DNA of 64,000 nt from Haliclystus octoradiatus (taxonomy: Eukaryota; Cnidaria; Staurozoa; Stauromedusae; Haliclystidae), in NCBI GenBank assembly GCA_916610825.1, contig OU744452.1, forward strand, positions 374,501 through 438,500, written 5' to 3'. This document shows positions 43,509 to 55,590 of this stretch, in pieces. The notes below the pieces were generated by a model. It searched no databases, had not been told where the DNA came from, and saw nothing but the letters and a program-made list of their open reading frames with translations. Both the position numbers and the translations under genes were made by a program. Positions within the stretch are counted from its first letter, which is position 1, and each line of letters opens with the position of its first letter.

Positions 43509-45165
43509 ATGAGGGTCTGGCAGACAATATTGGTCGTTTCGTTGACCATTTGCTTGGTATCCGGTAAGTCAATTAAGGAAACAGTTTACTTCATGTGTTA
43601 TCATTACTTCAGATGGTGATCACATTTACTGTTATTAACAAATAGGCTATCCACGTAAAAATGCCAAAGTTGAAAAAAAACACAAAGGAGCCAAAAAGGT
43701 CAGTTAGAAATATAATAATAATTATCTGCACTTGTTGTTTGATAATGCCATTTTATTATTATTCTATTGAACCTAATTATAATATATAACTTACTGATAT
43801 CTTGTTTTTGTTTTGAATAGCAAGATCCATTAGTCCCTCCACCACCCCAACCACAACCACCCCCACCCCCACCGCCAGAGGTCCCACCCCCTGTTGAACC
43901 CACTGTAGCCCCACCACCACCTCCAGTACCAGACGTACCACCACCAGTTGTCCCTCCGCCAGCTGTACCTCCACCGTTCGTACCTCCTGCTGCTGAAGGG
44001 TCTGGAGATGAATCATCAGGAGGTAAGCCAAACATGCCACATTAAAATAATAATTACATTTTTATCGTCCATCCACCCACCGTATCGTTTATTGATTATG
44101 TTTATTTCTATTTCAGTGATGCCTCCTGCCCCAGTGCAGCCACCTGTTATGCTTCCCACACTCCCCCCACAGGTACCTCAACCAGCACCTCCAGGTCCCC
44201 CACCTGGTGTTCCAGCACCCCCTCCCCCACCTCCTCCAGGTGCTCCCCCTGCCCCACCTCCTCCAGCAGGTGGTCCTCCAGCCGATCCTCCAGCACCTCC
44301 CCCACCAGCTCCACCAGCGGACCCAGCTGCCCCACCCCCACCACCCCCACAAGAAGAGGAAGAGGAAGAAGAGAAGAAGAAGAAGCAGAAAAAGGGCAAA
44401 AAGGTGAAAGCAATTAAGAAATCATCAAAGCACGGTGGTAAGAAACACAACAACCGCGGTTCAGTATTAACCCATTCGGTTAACCGCATCTCACAGACAC
44501 CGAATGCACCTAATATTCAACATGCTCTTTCGCACACTACATCCCACGCCAAAGTTAAAGCTGGAACAAGAAGACGCAGAGACATCAACGAAGACATCGA
44601 CGAAATGATCTTTCCTGATTCAGATTCCGCCGAAGAAGATGATAATGATATTGATAACGATGAACAGACCACCGAAGAATCTCACGACGATAATGACAAT
44701 GCAGCTGAAAGTGGTGACTCAGCAGAATGCAAAGATAACCTTGCAAATGATGATGATGATGATGATAGCGATGATTCAGGAGATGATGAAGATCAACCAC
44801 AAGCCCCAGCGCCTGCTGCAGCCCCATGCCCTGTCCCTCCCCCTGAGCCACCAGTACTTCCAGCCGCCGCACCGTATCCCGGATATCCAGCAGGATACCC
44901 AGAATACCCACCTCCACCCCCACCACCCCCACCACCAGTAGAACCACCCCCACCACCACCACCAGTAGATCCACTCCCACCACCACCACCACCACCACCA
45001 CCACCACCACCACCCCCACCCCCACCTCCACCACCATTCTACAAGAAGAAGGCTGCACACAAGAAAGTGAAATTCGATAAGACAAACCGAGACAATGACG
45101 AGAAGATCAAGCCTCTTCATAAAATATTGAAAACGAAAAAGACGCGAAGCCACACCCACCACTAA
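43509..45165 (+). CDS. predicted secreted protein C, 452 aa, extremely proline-rich with charge blocks
   Basis: Exons 43509-43563, 43646-43698, 43821-44022 and 44117-45165 (phases 1, 0, 1) close to 452 codons plus stop. A signal peptide (MRVWQTILVVSLTICLVSG) is followed by a Lys-rich mini-exon and a Pro/Val exon. The long last exon has four blocks: Pro/Ala, then EEEEEEEKKKKQKKGKK, a furin-like TRRRRD, an Asp/Glu/Asn block (a run of six Asp), and a closing poly-Pro run of about 20 before a Lys/His-rich end (SHTHH). One Cys-containing motif (CPVPPP) stands alone. It is intrinsically disordered by composition. Acidic, basic and proline-rich blocks in secreted proteins occur in biomineral and coat matrices, but no homology is claimed. 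Gly- and Val-rich reverse-strand frames here are shadows. AATAAA lies at 45365. Confidence 0.8.
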
Positions 45166-46322: not shown

Positions 46323-46800
46323 TTAGAAAAGAACAAGACCATTGATAACATCATCTCTAACACGAATGACAAAACGATCTCTGAAGATTTGTGATTTACA
46401 GCATTCTGCGAATTTACATCCACGCTGGATTTCTCTCAGGTCATTGAGCCAATCATCAATTGTTTCACCATCGGCTTGATCTCGACGTTTGAAGCGATGT
46501 GTTTCGACTACTTCATTTTGAGCTCCTTTTCCATATTTGTCTAATTCAATAAGGAGACTTTTGACAGATAGTCCTTGTTCTTCTGTGAGTGGCAGGATCG
46601 TCAGAATTTGCAAGGTCTCGTCGGCCAAGCACATATTCAAGAAATAAACTTGATGCTGAGCAGGTAACGCTTCCATATTCGTAAGGCAAGGGTATCCATC
46701 CCATTTTAATTTCCATAATTTGAAATGCTCGTAGAGGTCAACGGTAAGGTCCAACTTACCCGGTAATTTGGCTTGTATTCGGAGATTATAAATCGCCGCC
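46323..46800 (-). pseudogene. Gypsy-type gag remnant interrupted by the MULE
   Basis: The minus-strand frame encodes a retrotransposon gag/capsid-like domain: HFKLWKLKWDGYPCLT, CLADETLQILTILPL, RFKRRDQADGETIDDWLNDL and CKFAECC...RDRFVIRVRDD. Its N-terminal 17 codons as read (from 46853) are in fact the MULE's inverted repeat, so the apparent start is an artefact. The native 5' part should continue beyond 55581 on the minus strand, where a stop is soon met. The 3' end is cut by the LINE tail. The gene is not functional. Confidence 0.75.
46792..46800. repeat. 9-bp target-site duplication, left copy
   Basis: ATCGCCGCC directly outside the left TIR, identical to 55582-55590. Confidence 0.9.
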
Positions 46801-46919
46801 GCGCATGGATTTTTCGTAACGCGTAACCCACATTCCATAACCGTAACCCACATTCCAGTTTCGTTTTCATGTTTTTCACCTCGTCTCTGTGTGAGGAAGA
46901 AGTAGAAAAAGCGCGAAAA
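46801..46919 (+). repeat. MULE left terminal inverted repeat
   Basis: 119 bp starting GCGCATGGATTTTTCG. Two copies of CGTAACCCACATTCC lie near the outer end (from 46820 and 46841), repeated at the other end, and are plausible transposase-binding sites. Confidence 0.9.
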
Positions 46920-47033
46920 TAGTTAGATTATTGAGAGTGAATTAGAGTTGATGTTGGTTGTTGAACATGTGATTTACTTTGCTATTATATATTATATATG
47001 TAGCTGTTAGGAATCTTATCTCAAAATTTTAAA

Positions 47034-50000
47034 ATGGATGAACAATTTGACTTCGAAATTGATGGACTGGAAGTCTTTGTAAATGATTTTTTGTATAGTG
47101 TTCCACATGAACCTGTGGATTCTGATCATCCTGTTGATGTTGAAAAATCCCTATGTCAAATACCGATTGATGCCTTTGGAAAGCAAGGTAGGAAAACTGT
47201 TGTGCATATTACATCAAAGTGTTTGTTTTTGTGCACGTATGTGCACTATATGTTATAGAATTATACTGTATGTTTAATACCCTGTTCTTCGCATTGTAAC
47301 ATTAACATAAGGTCTAACTTTTACTTTACTTTAACCTTTTCACAATGTGTAAGAATTTGGCTCAAGCTAGAGAAGAGAGAGACAGAAAAGGGACACTATT
47401 ATAAATTATAGGTTTCCCATTTTAATGAGACATGATCAACCTTTACAACAGAACTGGTCCTAAACTCCAAAAGTGCTCCATTTATCACAGTTATAACTAC
47501 GCGTGACTAATCTTTAAACGTGACCCGTAGCGCTAAGATGGAACACTAAACCTGAGTCAAGAATCTACGATTTTATTGAAATCTGTAATTTCAGTCCATT
47601 TTATGTGGGGTTTCATTTCTGTTTTAAAATTGTTTTGTCATTTAATTTGGTAGGTGACGGTGTTGAAGTTGAAGAAAATCCAAGACAAAGCGAATCCTGC
47701 TCATTGCAAGAATATGCTCCAACAAATGGTTAGAATATTAGTAGTTTTTGTATCAATAATAAATCACAGAAAGTTTATCAAGATAACTAGATCCTGCTTA
47801 AGGACATTCACTCAAAATGAAACATTAGTATTAATCCTAATGTATATGCCTTGTCATAGTATATTTATGTAATGTTACGTTTGATCATTTTGTGGTTCCT
47901 TGTTATGAATCATGTTACCCATTGACGTAACATGCCTCAGTTTGTTCCTTGTATCTGTTCCGTGTTTGAATCAATCTAGTTTTACTTACGTTGTTTGTTA
48001 TTGTAAGCAATGCTGACTAGTAATTCGATGCATGTTTTCATAGTTGTGTTATTGACGTAATGTTAACTTGTTATTCCCCTTTATTATTCATAAAGTCCTA
48101 GTAAATTGTTAACTTGGTCAGTTGTTCAGTGTACATCGTGTTCAATAAAGCTATCAGTAACCAATTACTGTGTCTTCCTTGCGCTGTACAATACGTGGTA
48201 TTTTACAGCCTACATTGTCTCTTGGACCAAATAAATGTTTCTATACATGCAAATTGCTGGTGTTTGCAGTCAATCATGTGCAATTTAACAATTGCTTGTG
48301 CAGTGGGGTAATTCTTTCATGAAATAGTTACATTTCAATTATGGATTGTGCATAATAAATTGTCTTCTGGTTTTGAAATAGTTTTTACTGACTAATAGAT
48401 TTTGGCTTCTTTTATAGCCTACATTCAACATTTTATGCCTTCAAGGACTTCTAGTGGGTTACTGGTGCCATTTCAATGATATTTTGATATTTTTCATACA
48501 TTTATCACTCCTGAGCACTGAATATTGAGTATAAAACAACATCATTGTAATTTGTGAATTGTAACTTAATTGCTAATTCTACCAAATAAGAAATGCCATC
48601 CTTTTTCAATTTAGATGATTTAACAATACATATTCCTGTTCTGGATAATGATGTCATTCACCAAGCTTTGGATAGCGTTTCGAAAACTATCCCAAAAACG
48701 ATTCAGAAAAATGTTGAAGATTATAATGAGTACATGCTACCATTACTGTCTACAAAATTTCACTACGAAATGATGGCATTCAACAAAGGTGCACACGAAG
48801 AGACCTTTTATGCTCAGCTCAAATGTAATATAAGTTCAAAAGAAGATATTTCTGATTTTGTAGAAGATTATCAAGAAACAACAAAGCAAACTCTGAGAAT
48901 AAGCAAAACTTATGGCGTATGCAATTCAGGAAGTCAACTGCAACAAAATTTCACAATGCGTTTTCGATGTCAGCACAACACAAGGTCTAAATGTCTCTAT
49001 GCACCTGGGCGTAGAATCAAGAACACGATATGCCCATTCTTTATCTCATTTAAAATAAAATTTGAAGGATCAAAAACTAATGATGACGATAAACATTGTT
49101 TCATAGATTTTAAGCATCAGCATAACCATGCTGTGACTCCATTGAATGCTTTATCATTCAGAGATTGCAGTCGTGATAGCAAAGAGAAGATGTTTAAGCT
49201 ATTTGAGAATAGATATACTCCCTCATTGGCTTATGGAGCTTTTAAAAAGGAACTTAGAGAAAGCTGTAAATCAGATACAGAATTTGAGCTCAAATTTGCA
49301 GACAGATCTATCATGCCTCGCTTAACTGACTTCAAATATTATTATAAATTATTCAATAGTAGTCTGTATGGGGCCAAAAATGGGGAGAAGTTGATTTCGC
49401 GATTGAATGATAAGGTCAGCCAATATAATGAGAAATTTAAAGCTCAGGATGGCAAAATGAAGCATAAATTGACTGTTGATCAAGTATCAAAACGGGTCAA
49501 ACTAGTGCTTGCAATTGTCACACCCTTGATGGCAAGAGTGCACAAGCATCTGCTGCATTCTTCTGAACTAGTGTTTTCAGATAGCACTTCGAATCTGGAT
49601 GACCACAATTTGCGTTTTCTGATGCTTTGCACCCATTCTGTGGCAGGTGGGTTGCCACTAGCCATAATAATTATGAGTGACGAAACGGAAGAAACATTTA
49701 ATGAGGCATTTGAATTACTGAAGGAGTGCTTACCGGTTTATGCCTTTTTTAATAGAGGGACAGAGTTAGGGCCAATGGTGTTTTTAACAGATAACTGCAG
49801 TGAAGAGAGGATAGCACTTTCTTCGTCGTGGCCAAATGCGAGATTGATGCTATGCACCTTTCATGTGCTACAAGCGATTTGGAGGTGGCTCTTCGACAAG
49901 AAAAATAAAATTATGCAAGACGACAGGCCAACCATAATGAAATGTATTAAAAAAGTTATGTACTCATTGACAGATTCTGATGCCAAAGAACATGCAGAAT

Positions 50001-51250
50001 CAATGCTACAGAGTGAAATAGTACAACGTTCGCCATTATTTAAAGCCTACTATGAAGAATATGTACAGCCAAACATTGCATACTGGTGTTTGGCTTATCG
50101 AACATCTCTTCCAATAAGAGGAAACCATACTCAAAACTATGCTGAATCCCAGTTTCTCGTCATCAAACAGGAAATGTTACAGAGGGTAAAATCATATAAT
50201 GTAATAGAACTCATTGATATGGTTATTGGTGATCTTGAACAGCACTACCAAGACAAGCTGCTCAAGGTTGCCAATGGGTCTCTGGATGGAACCTACAGCA
50301 AACGATATACCGCAACAAAACAGAAAGACATTGACCCTGACAACGTCATTGCTCTTGACAAAGACCTAGGATTTTACAGTGTTTTGTCTTCATCATCGTC
50401 GGGTGTCTTGTATGACATAGACATTTTATCTGGTTTTTGTAGCTGTCCGGTTGGTAGCGATGGTAGCCCATGCAAACATCAGTTTGCAGTAACAAAGAAG
50501 TTTAAAATAGGTAATGACAATTTTCTGCCAGTATTCAGCCAGAATGAACGCAGAGGGTATGCCCAGATTGCACATGAGGAAGCACTTCGAATAGAATTTT
50601 ATCAGGATTTTACCCAGATATGTGACTCGGACGGAGTAGAAGCCGGTGTGGATCCACCAAGTAATGCCTCCGAATTCACATTGCCTTGTGCTGACGTCAT
50701 TGTGTCAAATGAGTGTCTCAGTGAAGAATGCCCCATATCTATACAAATAACTCCATCAACAGAAACTGCTTTGCGCAGCTTTGAGGATGCTGTTGATGTC
50801 ATAAAGAATGCGATCCGGACCGGAGACAGCAATGTGTTAACAGGAATTACAAAATTTAGTGCGAAAGTATGCAAAATGTCTCATGGGAAATTGGGAAGTG
50901 CCCTCCATTGTTTCGATAACAAATTTGTTGGTAAACAATCAATAGTCCATTCAAAGTTTAAAATAGTAGGCAGAGCAAAAAAGAACTTCAGACGCGGTGC
51001 AATTGGTGTATTACCTGATGCTGTCAAGAGAAGAAAGGGACCAAGTAAAACTAGAAAAGCTCTTATGAAGGGCTCTAAACAAATTGACACCCCTCTTCTC
51101 CTTGATGACAATACCCGTCAATCAAAAAAAAGAACACACTGTCTGGCTACAATATTAGAACAAAATGTACCTGCTGCAAAGAAAGCTGGCCGAGCTATGC
51201 ATTCACGCTGTAAACCATCATATAAAAAAAAACAGAAAACAGCAAAGTAA
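47034..51250 (+). CDS. MULE transposase with SWIM zinc finger, 954 aa, 3 exons
   Basis: Exons 47034-47187, 47654-47728 and 48615-51250, both introns phase 1, close to 954 codons plus stop. The 885-codon frame beginning at 48593 uses intron bases and is a sub-model. Residues of about 180-260 form a zinc-binding, FAR1/FLYWCH-like DNA-binding region (Cys pairs, then HQHNH). The MULE catalytic core follows: Asp near 399 (VFSDSTSN), Asp near 469 (FLTDNCSEER) with LMLCTFHV, and a Glu in NYAESQF near 586. The SWIM finger is CSCPVGSDGSPCKH at about 685-700. The C-terminus is basic (RRKGPSKTRK, PSYKKKQKTAK), as for a nuclear localisation signal. The acidic N-terminal exons (DFEIDGLEVF) lack a known domain. 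No stop or frameshift is present. It would cut and rejoin the element at its TIRs. Confidence 0.87.
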
Positions 51251-51473
51251 GCGAAATTTCTCAACTGTTACACTCAAAATTATCGCTCAAAAACTCGATA
51301 TTCAAAATTGATTCACTTTTGCATAGAATCAGTACCAGTGCCTAACTGATTGAAGGCAAAAATCCAAAAATTAGCAAACATAACATATATATATAAGTAG
51401 ATCGAACATAATTTTGCATATAGCCGGTTGTAATTTTTCCTTTTCATTTCATTACGAAGTTCAAAAATCTAAC

Positions 51474-51479
51474 AATAAA
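51474..51479 (+). terminator. poly(A) signal of the MULE transposase gene
   Basis: AATAAA 224 bp after the stop, about 50 bp from the opposing signal of the zinc-finger gene. Confidence 0.6.
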
Positions 51480-51529
51480 TTTGACGGACACATGTAATAG
51501 ATTCCAAATAACAAATTATCAGTAATAAC

Positions 51530-51535
51530 TTTATT
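51530..51535 (-). terminator. poly(A) signal of the zinc-finger gene
   Basis: TTTATT on the plus strand (AATAAA on the minus) 42 bp past the zinc-finger stop. The two convergent transcripts probably overlap at their 3' ends. Confidence 0.55.
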
Positions 51536-51576
51536 CATTGATTATTTTAATTTAAGAAGAACATCAATACCTATCG

Positions 51577-54500
51577 CTAGTGCTTTTTTAAATGCTTGTT
51601 TCTGTTTGAGGCCGTCGAAAAAACACTAGTGCAAACATTACATTTAAATTTTGTACTGGTGTGAATCTTCTTGTGTTCATTCAGCCTGAATTTACTTGCA
51701 AAATATTTGTTGCAGATATTGCATGGTATAACTTTCTCTCTGTGTGTATCATTGAAATGGGACTGTACCAACTTTTGTGATGAAAATTCTTTCTTGCAGG
51801 AGGGGCATTTATGGGATTTCCCATGATCCTTTATGTGTTGGTTCAGATTCACCTCTCTCGAGAATTTCCAATTGCATACATGACAAATAAACTTCTTTCC
51901 TTGTATCAGCCTCGTATTGATAATGTTTGCACGCTTTGCACAATCCTTATGGAAAAACAAATGGACATAAGTGTATAGAGTGCCCGTATAGTTTTGTATA
52001 AATTATGCTTAAAATAAGGCCGCAATGAAAATCAAGTGTGTGAGCAGGCCCTTATTTTTTGAAAGAATAACCTCGAAAGGCAAGACTACCTTTTCTTGGG
52101 ACTGTTGAACTGAAGATAGACAGCTTCTTACAGTCCCCCCCCCCCAGAATATTGAAAGGGTGTTGATATACGCAATATAACACACACAATGTTGAATTAA
52201 TTGAACTTACCAAAAGTTACCGAAAATTTAAGTCATGATTTAAGCTTTCCCCTGCTAAAAAGAGTTCAGAAGTCCATGAAAAGTTCATGAACATTAGATG
52301 GCCCCAATATTCCATGAGCTGTTCATGAACTGTCTGCAAAGGTTCATGAACTGTTCATAAACGGTTCATGAACTTCTGAACTGTATTTTGCAACATGGTA
52401 TTCGTCATCATAATTGCACAGCAAAAGATTTGTTGAAAACAGCCTGAGTGTTTATATTATCCATATTGAACAATAAAGTGTTTGATATTTGATCTATAAA
52501 ATAAAAATATCTAATATGTGTGAGACTAACAGGGTTTTCTGAGAGAGAGAGAGAGACAGAAAATCAGAACTCTTCTTTACAAATATAACTTGTTCTTATT
52601 TCAATCATTATCTTTTTGAAGAAGAAGTGTTTTCTGTCTCTTTCACGCCAACCTTATAAGTCATTAGATATTTCTATTTTATAGATCAATATCAAACACT
52701 TTATTGTTCAATATGGATTATATAAACACTCAGGCTGGCTTCTATGTTTATATTTAACACTTATTTAACAGAAAGTGTTTGATATTTGCTTAATATTAAA
52801 CAAACCTCTTTAATGCATAGCGATGTCTTTTGCCATAGCTGTCCAATCATTTTGCTCAATACGGAGAAGTCCAAATCTGGATGAATTCTTTTAATCTTTT
52901 TCTATTTCAAATACAGTAATTTGAAATAACATGCGATTAGGCATACACTTTGTTATAAGAATACCAGGGCTCAAATTCTGAACAAATACATTATTTAAAT
53001 GAGTTCAAAATTCCCAAATGGAAACGATATGCACTTGAAATACAAGTACTGTACAAGTGTACTATACGTGAAAGCACTCTGATAGACAAGCTAGGAACAG
53101 CATATATGTATTTCAAAATATAAAATAGAAAAGAAAGTTGAATTAAGAACAACGTTTAGAACGCTTTGAGGTTTAGGCCTAGTGATTGTCGGCTTGGCTT
53201 GTCTTGTCAACTGTGATTTATATTGTAACTTTTGTTGAACACATATTCCCAACACTGTAAATAGTAACGTATTTTATGTATTCTCTCGCATTCACCTTAA
53301 TCGCATATTGAACCTCAACTGGTATAGCTGGTCCACCAACTTATAGAGGCTCTGATGTTATACGATCATATGATTGTCAGCTACTTTTACTAATATAGAT
53401 TATTATGATCATTAAATCAGAGCTCCAATCAAGAAAACAAATTATAACACTGACCATCAGCCAAAATTTATTTTCTTATAAAAATCGCAGTCAGTGGCAC
53501 ATCATATTAGGGATGTGGGTGGACTTTATAAATTTTGTTTGACTGTAAAAACAGATCAACACAATTCAACTTACCATTGAAACACGGAAAAACAAGTTAT
53601 ATCCTGTCACTTCGCCAGATTTCCTCCCAAGATATGTTTGAGGTCTAACACGGTCAGTATCTTCATCATTAATGGAATCTTCAATATTTTCTGAAACAGA
53701 TTCTATCGTATTCCTGTAATCCGAAGAACCCTGGGAAATAGTATAGATGATATATGTTTAGAAAATGATCATATCATTGGTGCACTGGTAGCATGGTAAC
53801 CGTGGTAGAATGTCCGCACTAAATAAGCGAGAGGCAGGGATTCTATTCCTTGTCAGTGCACACAAATGTGTCTGTAAATTCGTTTTATGTTCCAAAAATA
53901 AACAAGCACTGGTGCTGTGGGGTAGTCTAACTGACCTAACTTTCAATCATAATTTGTATGAAAATTATTGGAAAGTGTAATGCGTGTATCAGCGGCTTTC
54001 CCGGCTTCCAAGGGGATTAGTTGAGATTTGTTACAAAATAGAGCTCTAGGGGGAGCAAAGGGTTTTGTCTTTTTTGCAAATTCTATTTATACCCCGGGGA
54101 AAACCCCAGCCAATGTAATTTATGGTCAGCAGGTTTTATAAAAAATATCGCCGCCACAATTGAAAACACATGAGATTTGTTGTACATTACACATTCATGT
54201 ATGAGAAATTGTATTAGTATTTTTGTTGTCATATTCATTGCCAATATGTTTTCTGCAGATATTCCTATACAGTCAACAAGCAAGAGGGCGAAACAACAGG
54301 CATTCAAAATACATATAACAGTTACTAATCGCATGACAATATGAAGCACCAATCACATCACATTACTAATTATCACATGGCATCACATGCACTCAAACAA
54401 TACAATCACGTGAACAACATGCATAATACCTAAAATATTACATGACATCAAATATTCAACACATCGTAACGACAACACTGCACACAGATATACAACTGAG

Positions 54501-55383
54501 ACAAGAAAAATGTGTTACCATATAAACAATATCATAACTAAATCCTACAATGGTATACAATCCCCTGTTAACTCTATTATGCATATGTGTGACTTTATTT
54601 ATTTATTAGATACATTCTCACCTTGAATTTGTTAATGAAAGCTAAATATGTCCGGCCCCGGGGGAGGGGGAATTGAAGAATCAATGTTGCCCCTCACCCA
54701 CGGGGGTTAAATCAGTTTGGTGAGACCAATTTAGCAAATCCCCTAGGGTTCCTGGGGCTCACCCTCCGGGAAAGCCGCTGATACACACATGATAATAATA
54801 TGATTACATCATGATTTGACAACTTTTACTTGACTGGAATAGGTCTTATAATCAGTATTAGCACCTATGTGGAAACTGGGGATTAACTGGAGACTGGAAA
54901 ATTAACAAATGTCTGGCAATAGCCAATAACTTATGCCAGTAATATTTATTTATTTTATTTATTCATTATTGAAACAGTATTGCAATTAAACGCAAATAAT
55001 GTACATGTACTCTAGAAACATTTGAAAATAATCTTTTTTTATAAAAAAGATGTATACCATGTACAATAAATTAGAAATAATGAATAAATAAATAAATACT
55101 TGCAAATCTGATATTTTTTAAACTTGAGCCTTTATTTAAGTGTTTTTGTAAAAGATAAAGGGTATGTAATTGAGTTTCAAATATTATTTAACCTCGAAAT
55201 TGTTTAAATAGCACATAAGGCTACTTATAAGGTAGAGAAAGAAAGAGCTCCATGCCATTGCCTTCGACATTCTCTTTACACATATCCTGTAATAAAACAT
55301 GTAATTTTGTTGAGCCTCTAAGTAATACTCACCAAATCAGACAGCGCTTCTATTAAAGAGTGGTCGAATTCATCCAAATCCAT
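51577..55383 (-). CDS. C2H2 zinc-finger protein carried by the MULE, 191 aa, 3 exons
   Basis: Minus-strand exons 55383-55333 (17 codons), 53730-53575 (52 codons) and 51945-51577 (122 codons plus stop) have clean GTGAGT/GTAAGT donors and CAG/AAG acceptors. All junctions are phase 0. The acidic N-terminus (MDLDEFDHSLIEALSDL) resembles a short activation or interaction helix. Exon two is acidic, then RPQTYLGRKSGE. Exon three has four C2H2 fingers: CHVCNWKF..H..H, CPSCKKEF..H...H, CNICNKYF..H..H and CNVCTSVF..H..H. Its start, AATTCGACC and the upstream ATG lie 80 bp inside the right TIR, so the TIR region may serve as its promoter. It is probably a nuclear DNA-binding accessory protein: regulator, targeting factor or captured host gene. 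Confidence 0.8.
52283..52373. repeat. cluster of GTTCATGAAC palindromes
   Basis: Perfect 10-bp palindrome GTTCATGAAC at 52283, 52321, 52342 and 52364, plus GTTCATAAAC at 52353. The last three are spaced 11 bp apart, about one helical turn. It lies in the second intron of the zinc-finger gene. Confidence 0.9.
52440..52737. mobile_element. MITE with about 80-bp inverted arms
   Basis: The arms begin CAGCCTGAGTGTTTATA and end with the inverse TATAAACACTCAGGCTG. They share the block TTGAACAATAAAGTGTTTGA and stay matched for about 80 bp. The 298-bp unit would fold into one long hairpin. Spacer includes a (GA)n run. Located in an intron of the zinc-finger gene. Confidence 0.7.
52738..53574. other. 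intron of the zinc-finger gene, nothing recognised
   Basis: AT-rich, no coding or repeat boundary seen. Confidence 0.45.
53780..53861 (+). repeat. tRNA-Gly-like unit (SINE head or tRNA pseudogene)
   Basis: GTGCACTG and CAGTGCAC close a perfect 8-bp end stem. Inside are CCGTGGTAGAATGTC, resembling the tRNA-Gly A box/D arm, and GGGATTCTATTCC, near the B-box consensus. The D region has an extra segment and the anticodon arm is poor, so a working tRNA is unlikely. Confidence 0.45.
53984..54786. mobile_element. TIR element (about 800 bp) in intron 1 of the zinc-finger gene
   Basis: The left end GTGTATCAGCGGCTTTCCCGG (21 bp, listed here as GTGTATCAGCGG plus CTTTCCCGG) is exactly inverted at the right end. 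GC-rich subterminal parts (GGGGAAAACCCC, CCCCGGGGGAGG) surround an AT-rich core. TA at 53987-53988 and 54782-54783 could be the target. No coding capacity. Confidence 0.65.
54945..55105. repeat. hairpin-forming AT-rich repeat
   Basis: ATTTATTCATTATT near 54957 and AATAATGAATAAATAAAT near 55076 are inverted, with a central TTTTTTTATAAAAAA. Probably a small foldback MITE. Confidence 0.45.
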
Positions 55384-55462
55384 GCTGAATATGTTTGATC
55401 AAGATAATTTATTTGAAGTGAACCATTACTCTTAGATTTCGCGTTTTGATTCTGATTTCATG

Positions 55463-55581
55463 TTTTCGCGCTTTTTCTACTTCTTCCTCACACAGAGACG
55501 AGGTGAAAAACATGAAAACGAAACTGGAATGTGGGTTACGGTTATGGAATGTGGGTTACGCGTTACGAAAAATCCATGCGC
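55463..55581 (-). repeat. MULE right terminal inverted repeat
   Basis: Inverse of 46801-46919 over 119 bp, starting TTTTCGCGC inside and ending CCATGCGC at the outer edge. Confidence 0.9.
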
Positions 55582-55590
55582 ATCGCCGCC
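55582..55590. repeat. 9-bp target-site duplication, right copy
   Basis: ATCGCCGCC directly outside the right TIR, identical to the left copy. Confidence 0.9.

Follow-up and report, generated by a model that had tools for sequence, protein, structure and literature searches.

The two genes of MuDR, a Mutator-like element (MULE) of maize, are convergent, and the element makes a 9-bp target site duplication (TSD). They comprise a transposase gene, mudrA, and a second gene, mudrB, between long terminal inverted repeats (TIRs), and the second protein is described as being of unknown function and not as a C2H2 zinc-finger protein (PMC6446971). Extra open reading frames (ORFs) are listed for MuDR, Mutyl and Hiun, and second MULE genes have often been assumed to be host-derived (PMC6446971). 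For the MULE Spectre of the aphid Myzus persicae one complete element has been reported; it has perfect TIRs, encodes a C2H2 domain in one ORF and the transposase in another, and has been suggested to be still active (PMC6446971; the text gives two ORFs and Table 1 one). Here we report a MULE of 8,781 bp, which looks complete, at positions 46801-55581 of a 64,000-nucleotide stretch of the genome of the staurozoan cnidarian Haliclystus octoradiatus (positions 374,501 to 438,500 of contig OU744452.1, assembly GCA_916610825.1; this whole stretch is referred to as the window). Its transposase gene is accompanied by a predicted C2H2 zinc-finger gene, and the same pair recurs in at least four diverged families in this genome.

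The element has a DDE transposase with a MULE domain, a TSD within the 8 to 11 bp range and TIRs (usually long in this superfamily), three hallmarks of MULEs. Given Spectre, the combination of a C2H2 gene and a transposase gene is not new in kind. Spectre, which we compare by its published description and not by its sequence, shares the C2H2 ORF beside the transposase but has an arthropod host, TIRs of about 75 bp (74 bp, or 76 bp in Table 1) and an 8-bp TSD, compared with the 119-bp TIRs and 9-bp TSD of the cnidarian element (PMC6446971). For the group of the yeast element Mutyl (MutB) C2H2 is listed, but the host is an ascomycete, the TIRs are 22 bp, and text and table of the source conflict on the orientation of the ORFs; the cnidarian sub-group of Ghost has a comparable host and a long TIR (177 bp) but is listed with one ORF (PMC6446971). 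The Arabidopsis MULE VANDAL21/Hiun (VANA, VANB and VANC) also encodes an accessory sequence-specific DNA-binding protein, and VANDAL tandem motifs vary between related elements; VANC, however, carries DUF1985 and DUF287 (PMC5735166), neither of which appeared in our Pfam scan of the C2H2 protein. In the open-licence literature we found no other report of C2H2-partnered MULEs in cnidarians, and within that literature four points are new: that the host is a cnidarian, that a single genome holds the partnership in four families, the anatomy as read from either end, and the tandem motifs at the termini.

Structure of the element and its two genes

The TIRs, 119 bp each, are located at 46801-46919 (plus strand, starting with GCGCATGGATTTTTCG) and 55463-55581 (minus strand) and match each other without mismatch; the 126-bp arms given by the repeat finder overrun into TSD bases. 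The element is flanked by perfect copies of the 9-bp TSD ATCGCCGCC (46792-46800 and 55582-55590). Between the TIRs we predict two convergent genes with three exons each: a transposase gene on the plus strand (exons 47034-47187, 47654-47728 and 48615-51250; 954 amino acids) and a zinc-finger gene on the minus strand (exons 55333-55383, 53575-53730 and 51577-51945; 191 amino acids). Each of the four introns has GT-AG borders and neither frame is interrupted, and the start codons lie approximately 233 bp (transposase) and 198 bp (zinc-finger) from their respective element ends. A preliminary description of the window had claimed equal 119-bp inverted repeats, a perfect 9-bp duplication and two multi-exon genes whose splice phases close with no disabling change, and all of this was borne out, for the genes at the level of the predicted models.

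Exon 3 of the transposase gene encodes the MULE domain, the likely DDE residues D399, D469 and E587 (numbering of the 954-residue protein) and the SWIM ligands. The transposase of the window copy, whose family we call A, matched the Pfam MULE domain PF10551 (E = 2.9e-9, 37.7 bits, cut-off 27.6 bits), which together with the TIRs and the TSD upholds the earlier assignment to MULEs; for the three other families described below the scores were 35.3 (B) and 40.1 bits (D), above the cut-off, and 26.2 bits (C), just below it. MULE transposases may also have a zinc finger of their own, of the SWIM or FLYWCH/WRKY-GCM1 type. SWIM scored 18.6 bits in A (cut-off 19.6 bits), was weaker in B and D and was not listed for C, and all four SWIM ligands are invariant in the alignment of families A to D. 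A match to the FAR1 DNA-binding domain was seen in D only and was weak (E = 0.019). The DDE triad was assigned by spacing against Muta1, in which D, D, E, H and W residues are required as judged by mutation (PMC5225508), and in the four-family alignment the D, D and E (D322, D392 and E510 there), C-x2-H and tryptophan positions are invariant.

The predicted zinc-finger protein starts with an acidic N terminus, which begins in exon 1 (15 acidic residues and one K/R among the first 43); exon 2 closes with the segment TGYNLFFRVSM and exon 3 encodes four C2H2 fingers (Pfam PF00096, four matched stretches), so the gene had been correctly described as C2H2. The finger region is basic (23 K/R and six acidic among 106 residues) and no enzyme domain appeared in the Pfam scan. 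An acidic N terminus followed by basic fingers is like the build of a transcription factor, as far as the predicted protein goes. A search among solved structures gave nothing convincing (best E 0.027), and one scan of viral contigs for relatives gave 93 pattern matches, none of which was confirmed.

Family A: copies, intactness and age

We searched the assembly (261.9 Mb, 33 contigs) with the left end of the element (130-bp query) and obtained 40 matches at E ≤ 0.001, including partial matches and right ends. Eleven copies, including the one in the window, are full-length from TIR to TIR; identity to the window copy is 98.9-99.9% among the ten others, two of which have a later insert of approximately 2 kb. 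Both genes are present in all eleven and also in two further copies on the short contig C14. In the preliminary description it was argued that copies consistently lacking the zinc-finger gene, or an orthologue of this gene at a conserved host locus, would point to a one-off capture. The zinc-finger-less derivative that we sampled (L022, which has kept its TSD) has a large internal deletion that also removed most of the transposase gene, and no host-locus orthologue was seen among the best 150 of 421 candidates in the host genome.

The zinc-finger frame is intact in 11/11 full-length copies and the transposase core in 10/11. The transposase frame is open to its normal stop in seven copies, three are shifted by one base within their final five codons, which leaves an open frame 32 amino acids longer, and one has two premature stops. 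The TIRs of a copy differ from each other by 0 to 3 bases in 10/11 copies (those of L020_21 are not comparable without gaps). The identity of 98.9-99.9% between the window copy and the ten others supports the earlier view of family A as young; as also suggested earlier, it may be active. The family appears to have amplified recently and looks autonomous. The ratio of nonsynonymous to synonymous polymorphism (pN/pS) within family A is 0.54 for the transposase gene (41 nonsynonymous and 20 synonymous variants, 11 copies) and 0.24 for the zinc-finger gene (four and four, 12 copies), which agrees with constraint, weakly so for the zinc-finger gene; that the fingers are retained between families at 31-43% identity is the stronger sign of constraint.

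Perfect 9-bp TSDs surround eight of the eleven full-length copies. These and the TSD of L022, nine in total, fit NNCGNCGCN, with C, G, C and C at positions 3, 4, 6 and 8 (8/9 each) and G at position 7 (7/9); their G+C content is 72%, compared with approximately 34% for the genome (PMC9975415). The window copy itself broke a minus-strand frame at 46323-46800 (an open frame, gag-like as judged by eye) that belongs to a putative retrotransposon. Its left flank matches nine further places in the genome and its right flank three, and at C2:15.357 Mb, C1:22.417 Mb and C4:23.032 Mb both flanks are found 20-33 bp apart with the element absent. With respect to empty sites, which the preliminary description had proposed to look for, we thus have three paralogous element-free places, but their right flanks are just 73-83% alike and alignment fails over the 20-33 bp of the junction, so that they approximate an empty site without fixing its exact position. 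The eleven separate full-length loci and these element-free places rule out chance or an assembly artefact.

Two other arrangements were noted among A-type sequences. The flanks of L011 each separately resemble the target motif, as expected from recombination between two copies. L023 (501-3279) has two left TIR starts in direct orientation, each preceded by the same 25-bp flank, of which the first leads into a family A end of 1.9 kb (99.8%). The other start, whose TIR is 95% alike, continues into a relative that is older and rearranged. The arrangement has the look of a gap repair that was aborted, or of a duplication at a single site.

The gene pair recurs in three further families

When the whole genome was searched for the transposase, the best 52 of 196 candidates yielded 55 matches, which were merged into 46 loci (47 if two loci on contig C2 near 1.70 Mb are counted separately). 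Among these we recognised three families in addition to A. Family B (L029 and L030) is 5.7 kb in L029 and has TIRs of about 103 bp and the TSDs ATCGCCGAT and CGCGCCGGC; family C (L033 with L035, and also L031 and L034) is 9.5 kb, with 191-bp TIRs that are 95% alike and the TSD AGTGCCTTC; family D (L038 with L037, and also L036) is 5.9 kb, with TIRs of about 206 bp and the TSD GCCGACGCC. The TIR lengths of B and D are given after subtraction of TSD bases. All copies that were read to both ends (two in B, one each in C and D) have 9-bp TSDs, and in B, C and D alike a zinc-finger gene lies downstream of the transposase gene on the opposite strand, i.e. the genes are convergent as in A. The preliminary description had inferred that the C2H2 protein is a standing partner of the transposase, and both this recurrence and the presence of the two genes in every full-length A copy speak for it.

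Compared with A, the B transposase is 46-47% identical and the B finger exon 43%. For the transposase core the identities are 49% (A-B), 41% (C-D) and 35-40% (remaining pairs), and for the finger exon 43%, 42% and 31-38%, respectively. Since the A-B and C-D pattern is similar in both genes, these pairwise identities and scores, which do not amount to a tree, suggest that the two genes descended together from one ancestor. Moreover, each of the four families has a GY(N/H)xF segment ahead of its finger exon (in D as judged by eye), and given this segment the resemblance between the zinc-finger genes seems to exceed what they share as C2H2 fingers. On these grounds the partnership looks older than the split of the four families. 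The D partner was missed by the family A finger-exon query among the best 150 of 421 candidates; it was recognised on reading the family D sequence, after which a D query was run (best 150 of 454 candidates). Upstream of the finger exon of C, a frame at L031:6324-6794 (minus strand) matches a SCAND3-type zinc finger (PF23663, E 8.7e-11) and is followed by a TGYHAF segment; the family C partner protein may therefore carry an extra N-terminal domain of this type.

A convergent C2H2 gene lies within 8 kb of 39 of the 46 detected transposase loci. Thirty-eight of these come from a linkage test in which random placement gave 0.10 linked loci on average and never more than 2 (2000 trials), and the 39th, at C2:22.97 Mb (L040), was added when its C2H2 gene was found on reading. 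The null was based on 84 merged C2H2 loci from two match lists, with most repeated matches in the large clusters at C1:33.0 Mb, C4:31-35 Mb and C5:23.65 Mb omitted; its mean is hence slightly low and would be about 0.2 if all 253 listed C2H2 matches were counted separately. The size of C10 was taken from the genome note (PMC9975415). The remaining finger-exon matches are generic C2H2 arrays with E values of 8e-14 or weaker (best 150 of 421). Four partner-like C2H2 genes have no transposase match nearby (C6:6706854, C2:23551033, C10:7616378 and C7:26907277); they are 36-43% identical, three have stops, and they may be decayed elements or mark transposases that lie outside the scored candidates.

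Tandem motifs in the terminal inverted repeats

Each A TIR contains two tandem copies of CGTAACCCACATTCCA. In the window the pair has a period of 20 and is located at 46822-46857 (plus strand), with its mirror at 55525-55560 (minus strand). It scores 16, and none of 300 first-order Markov resamples reached this value (maximum 11). Each B TIR likewise has two tandem copies of GCGACCAGCATTCCA, a score that 0/300 resamples reached. The A and B motifs (15-16 bp) share a CATTCCA end and differ in the rest, and neither motif has an exact copy in A or B outside the TIRs. The common CATTCCA half might be read by one protein and the family-specific half by another.

Discussion

Taken together, we consider it probable, with appreciable room for doubt, that the element is a two-gene MULE in which the C2H2 partner was already joined to the transposase when families A to D diverged, and acts as a helper or regulator at the termini of its own element. 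The genes converge from start codons some 200-230 bp inside the two ends, so that either end of the element could drive one of them. The DDE transposase would cut at the TIRs, insert preferentially at sites resembling NNCGNCGCN and leave 9-bp duplications. The product of the second gene would be a small DNA-binding protein, with an acidic N terminus, the GY(N/H)xF segment and four C2H2 fingers, that recognises the terminal DNA of its own element and helps the element there, either through activation or de-repression of the genes driven from the TIRs or in the role of a transposition cofactor. The interpretation that we favour is that the element encodes its own DNA-binding helper, which acts at the ends of the element.

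Several observations weigh against it. The tandem pair in the C TIRs is weak (12/300 resamples reach its score) and the D TIRs have no tandem motif (298/300 reach the score), and these two cases count against a universal tandem-motif rule. The GY segment was seen in B copy L030 only and not found in L029. For the transposase core the B-D identity, 40%, is nearly that of C-D, 41%, although the bit scores differ (360 vs 424). The 46 transposase loci are a lower bound, as they derive from the best 52 of 196 candidates, and among the seven without a linked C2H2 gene L039 and L022 were read and are both partnerless (L039 has a truncated B-like transposase with two stops and no C2H2 partner within 4 kb); the five others have no partner in the match lists. 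Finally, L011, L012 and L014, i.e. three of the eleven full-length A copies, lack a matching TSD (in L014 the first base is lost or changed), and the pN/pS value of the zinc-finger gene is based on eight variants.

What the partner does, and where it came from, can be read in other ways. The zinc-finger gene could be a host gene fragment that was captured once and spread in one burst of copies, given that MULEs tend to pick up such fragments (PMC6446971) and that C2H2 genes are abundant in the host genome. This is contradicted by four families with 35-49% transposase identity whose C2H2 genes agree in position, orientation and upstream segment and show a similar relationship pattern, and by the absence of a close host donor among the best 150 of 421 candidates; we regard it as very improbable. 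Better, yet still unlikely, is that the C2H2 protein represses its own element and so limits its copy number, for which a predicted DNA-binding protein with no enzymatic domain in the Pfam scan and a modest number of full-length A copies, eleven, would be suitable; repressors, however, often derive from the transposase itself, and acidic N termini are more typical of activators. It could also be a VANC-like anti-silencer or activator, which would bind the family-specific tandem motifs and lift host repression or turn on both genes. The acidic N terminus of a predicted stand-alone DNA-binding protein with no enzyme domain fits this, and so do the A and B motifs with one common end and a different remainder, as VANC targets are often tandem repeats that differ between related transposable elements (PMC5735166). 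Conversely, VANC motifs sit in non-coding regions of VANDAL elements, e.g. introns and upstream regions (PMC5735166), whereas the exact A and B copies are confined to the TIRs, a placement that fits a transposase-binding site too, and the lack of a tandem motif in D also counts against a VANC-like role. We hold this role to be conceivable but doubtful, and put on the same level a function as transposition cofactor, be it in pairing of the ends, in integration or in the choice of target. Such a function has been proposed for maize mudrB, which is apparently needed for integration (PMC6446971). The convergent two-gene plan inside the TIRs and the strong target preference favour a cofactor; against it, the active mosquito MULE Muta1 shows no apparent site preference when it transposes in yeast, where its TSDs are 8 or 9 bp long (PMC5225508), and a MULE transposase can thus work without such a partner. 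More tentative still is the wider idea of an ancient two-gene lineage of animal MULEs in which the C2H2 protein coevolves with the terminal motifs, as a counterpart of plant VANC with an independent origin.

The favoured interpretation, a helper acting on the ends of its own element, gains interest from the setting, a zinc-finger partner that recurs in four diverged families of one animal genome. Because of this recurrence, and because the family A copies are near-identical and mostly intact, the role of the partner is directly testable; specifically, the protein and terminal-motif pairs of A and B permit a clean swap test of own-element recognition. If such recognition is true, this would be an animal transposon that carries its own targeted regulator, which would bear on the escape of elements from silencing and on the way in which C2H2 proteins gain new targets. 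Should the VANC-like reading be true, the element would bring its own sequence-specific activator or anti-silencer, and families A to D would constitute a natural series of matched pairs of protein and DNA site within one genome.

Other features

A reverse transcriptase-like frame (by eye) at L029:9024-9899 directly adjoins the family B copy, and B too may hence sit in a retrotransposon. In the window, an open frame of 418 amino acids at 43909-45165 (plus strand) is proline-rich, acidic and of low complexity, with CCA repeats, and coincides with a G+C-rich stretch at 44-45 kb. A nested hairpin (52435-52742), with 55-bp arms that are 95% complementary, lies within intron 2 of the zinc-finger gene and is at least partly present in the other full-length copies. 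In intron 1 of the same gene, an 811-bp stretch at 53980-54790 is bounded by 25-bp inverted repeats (96% complementary) and is possibly an older nested element.

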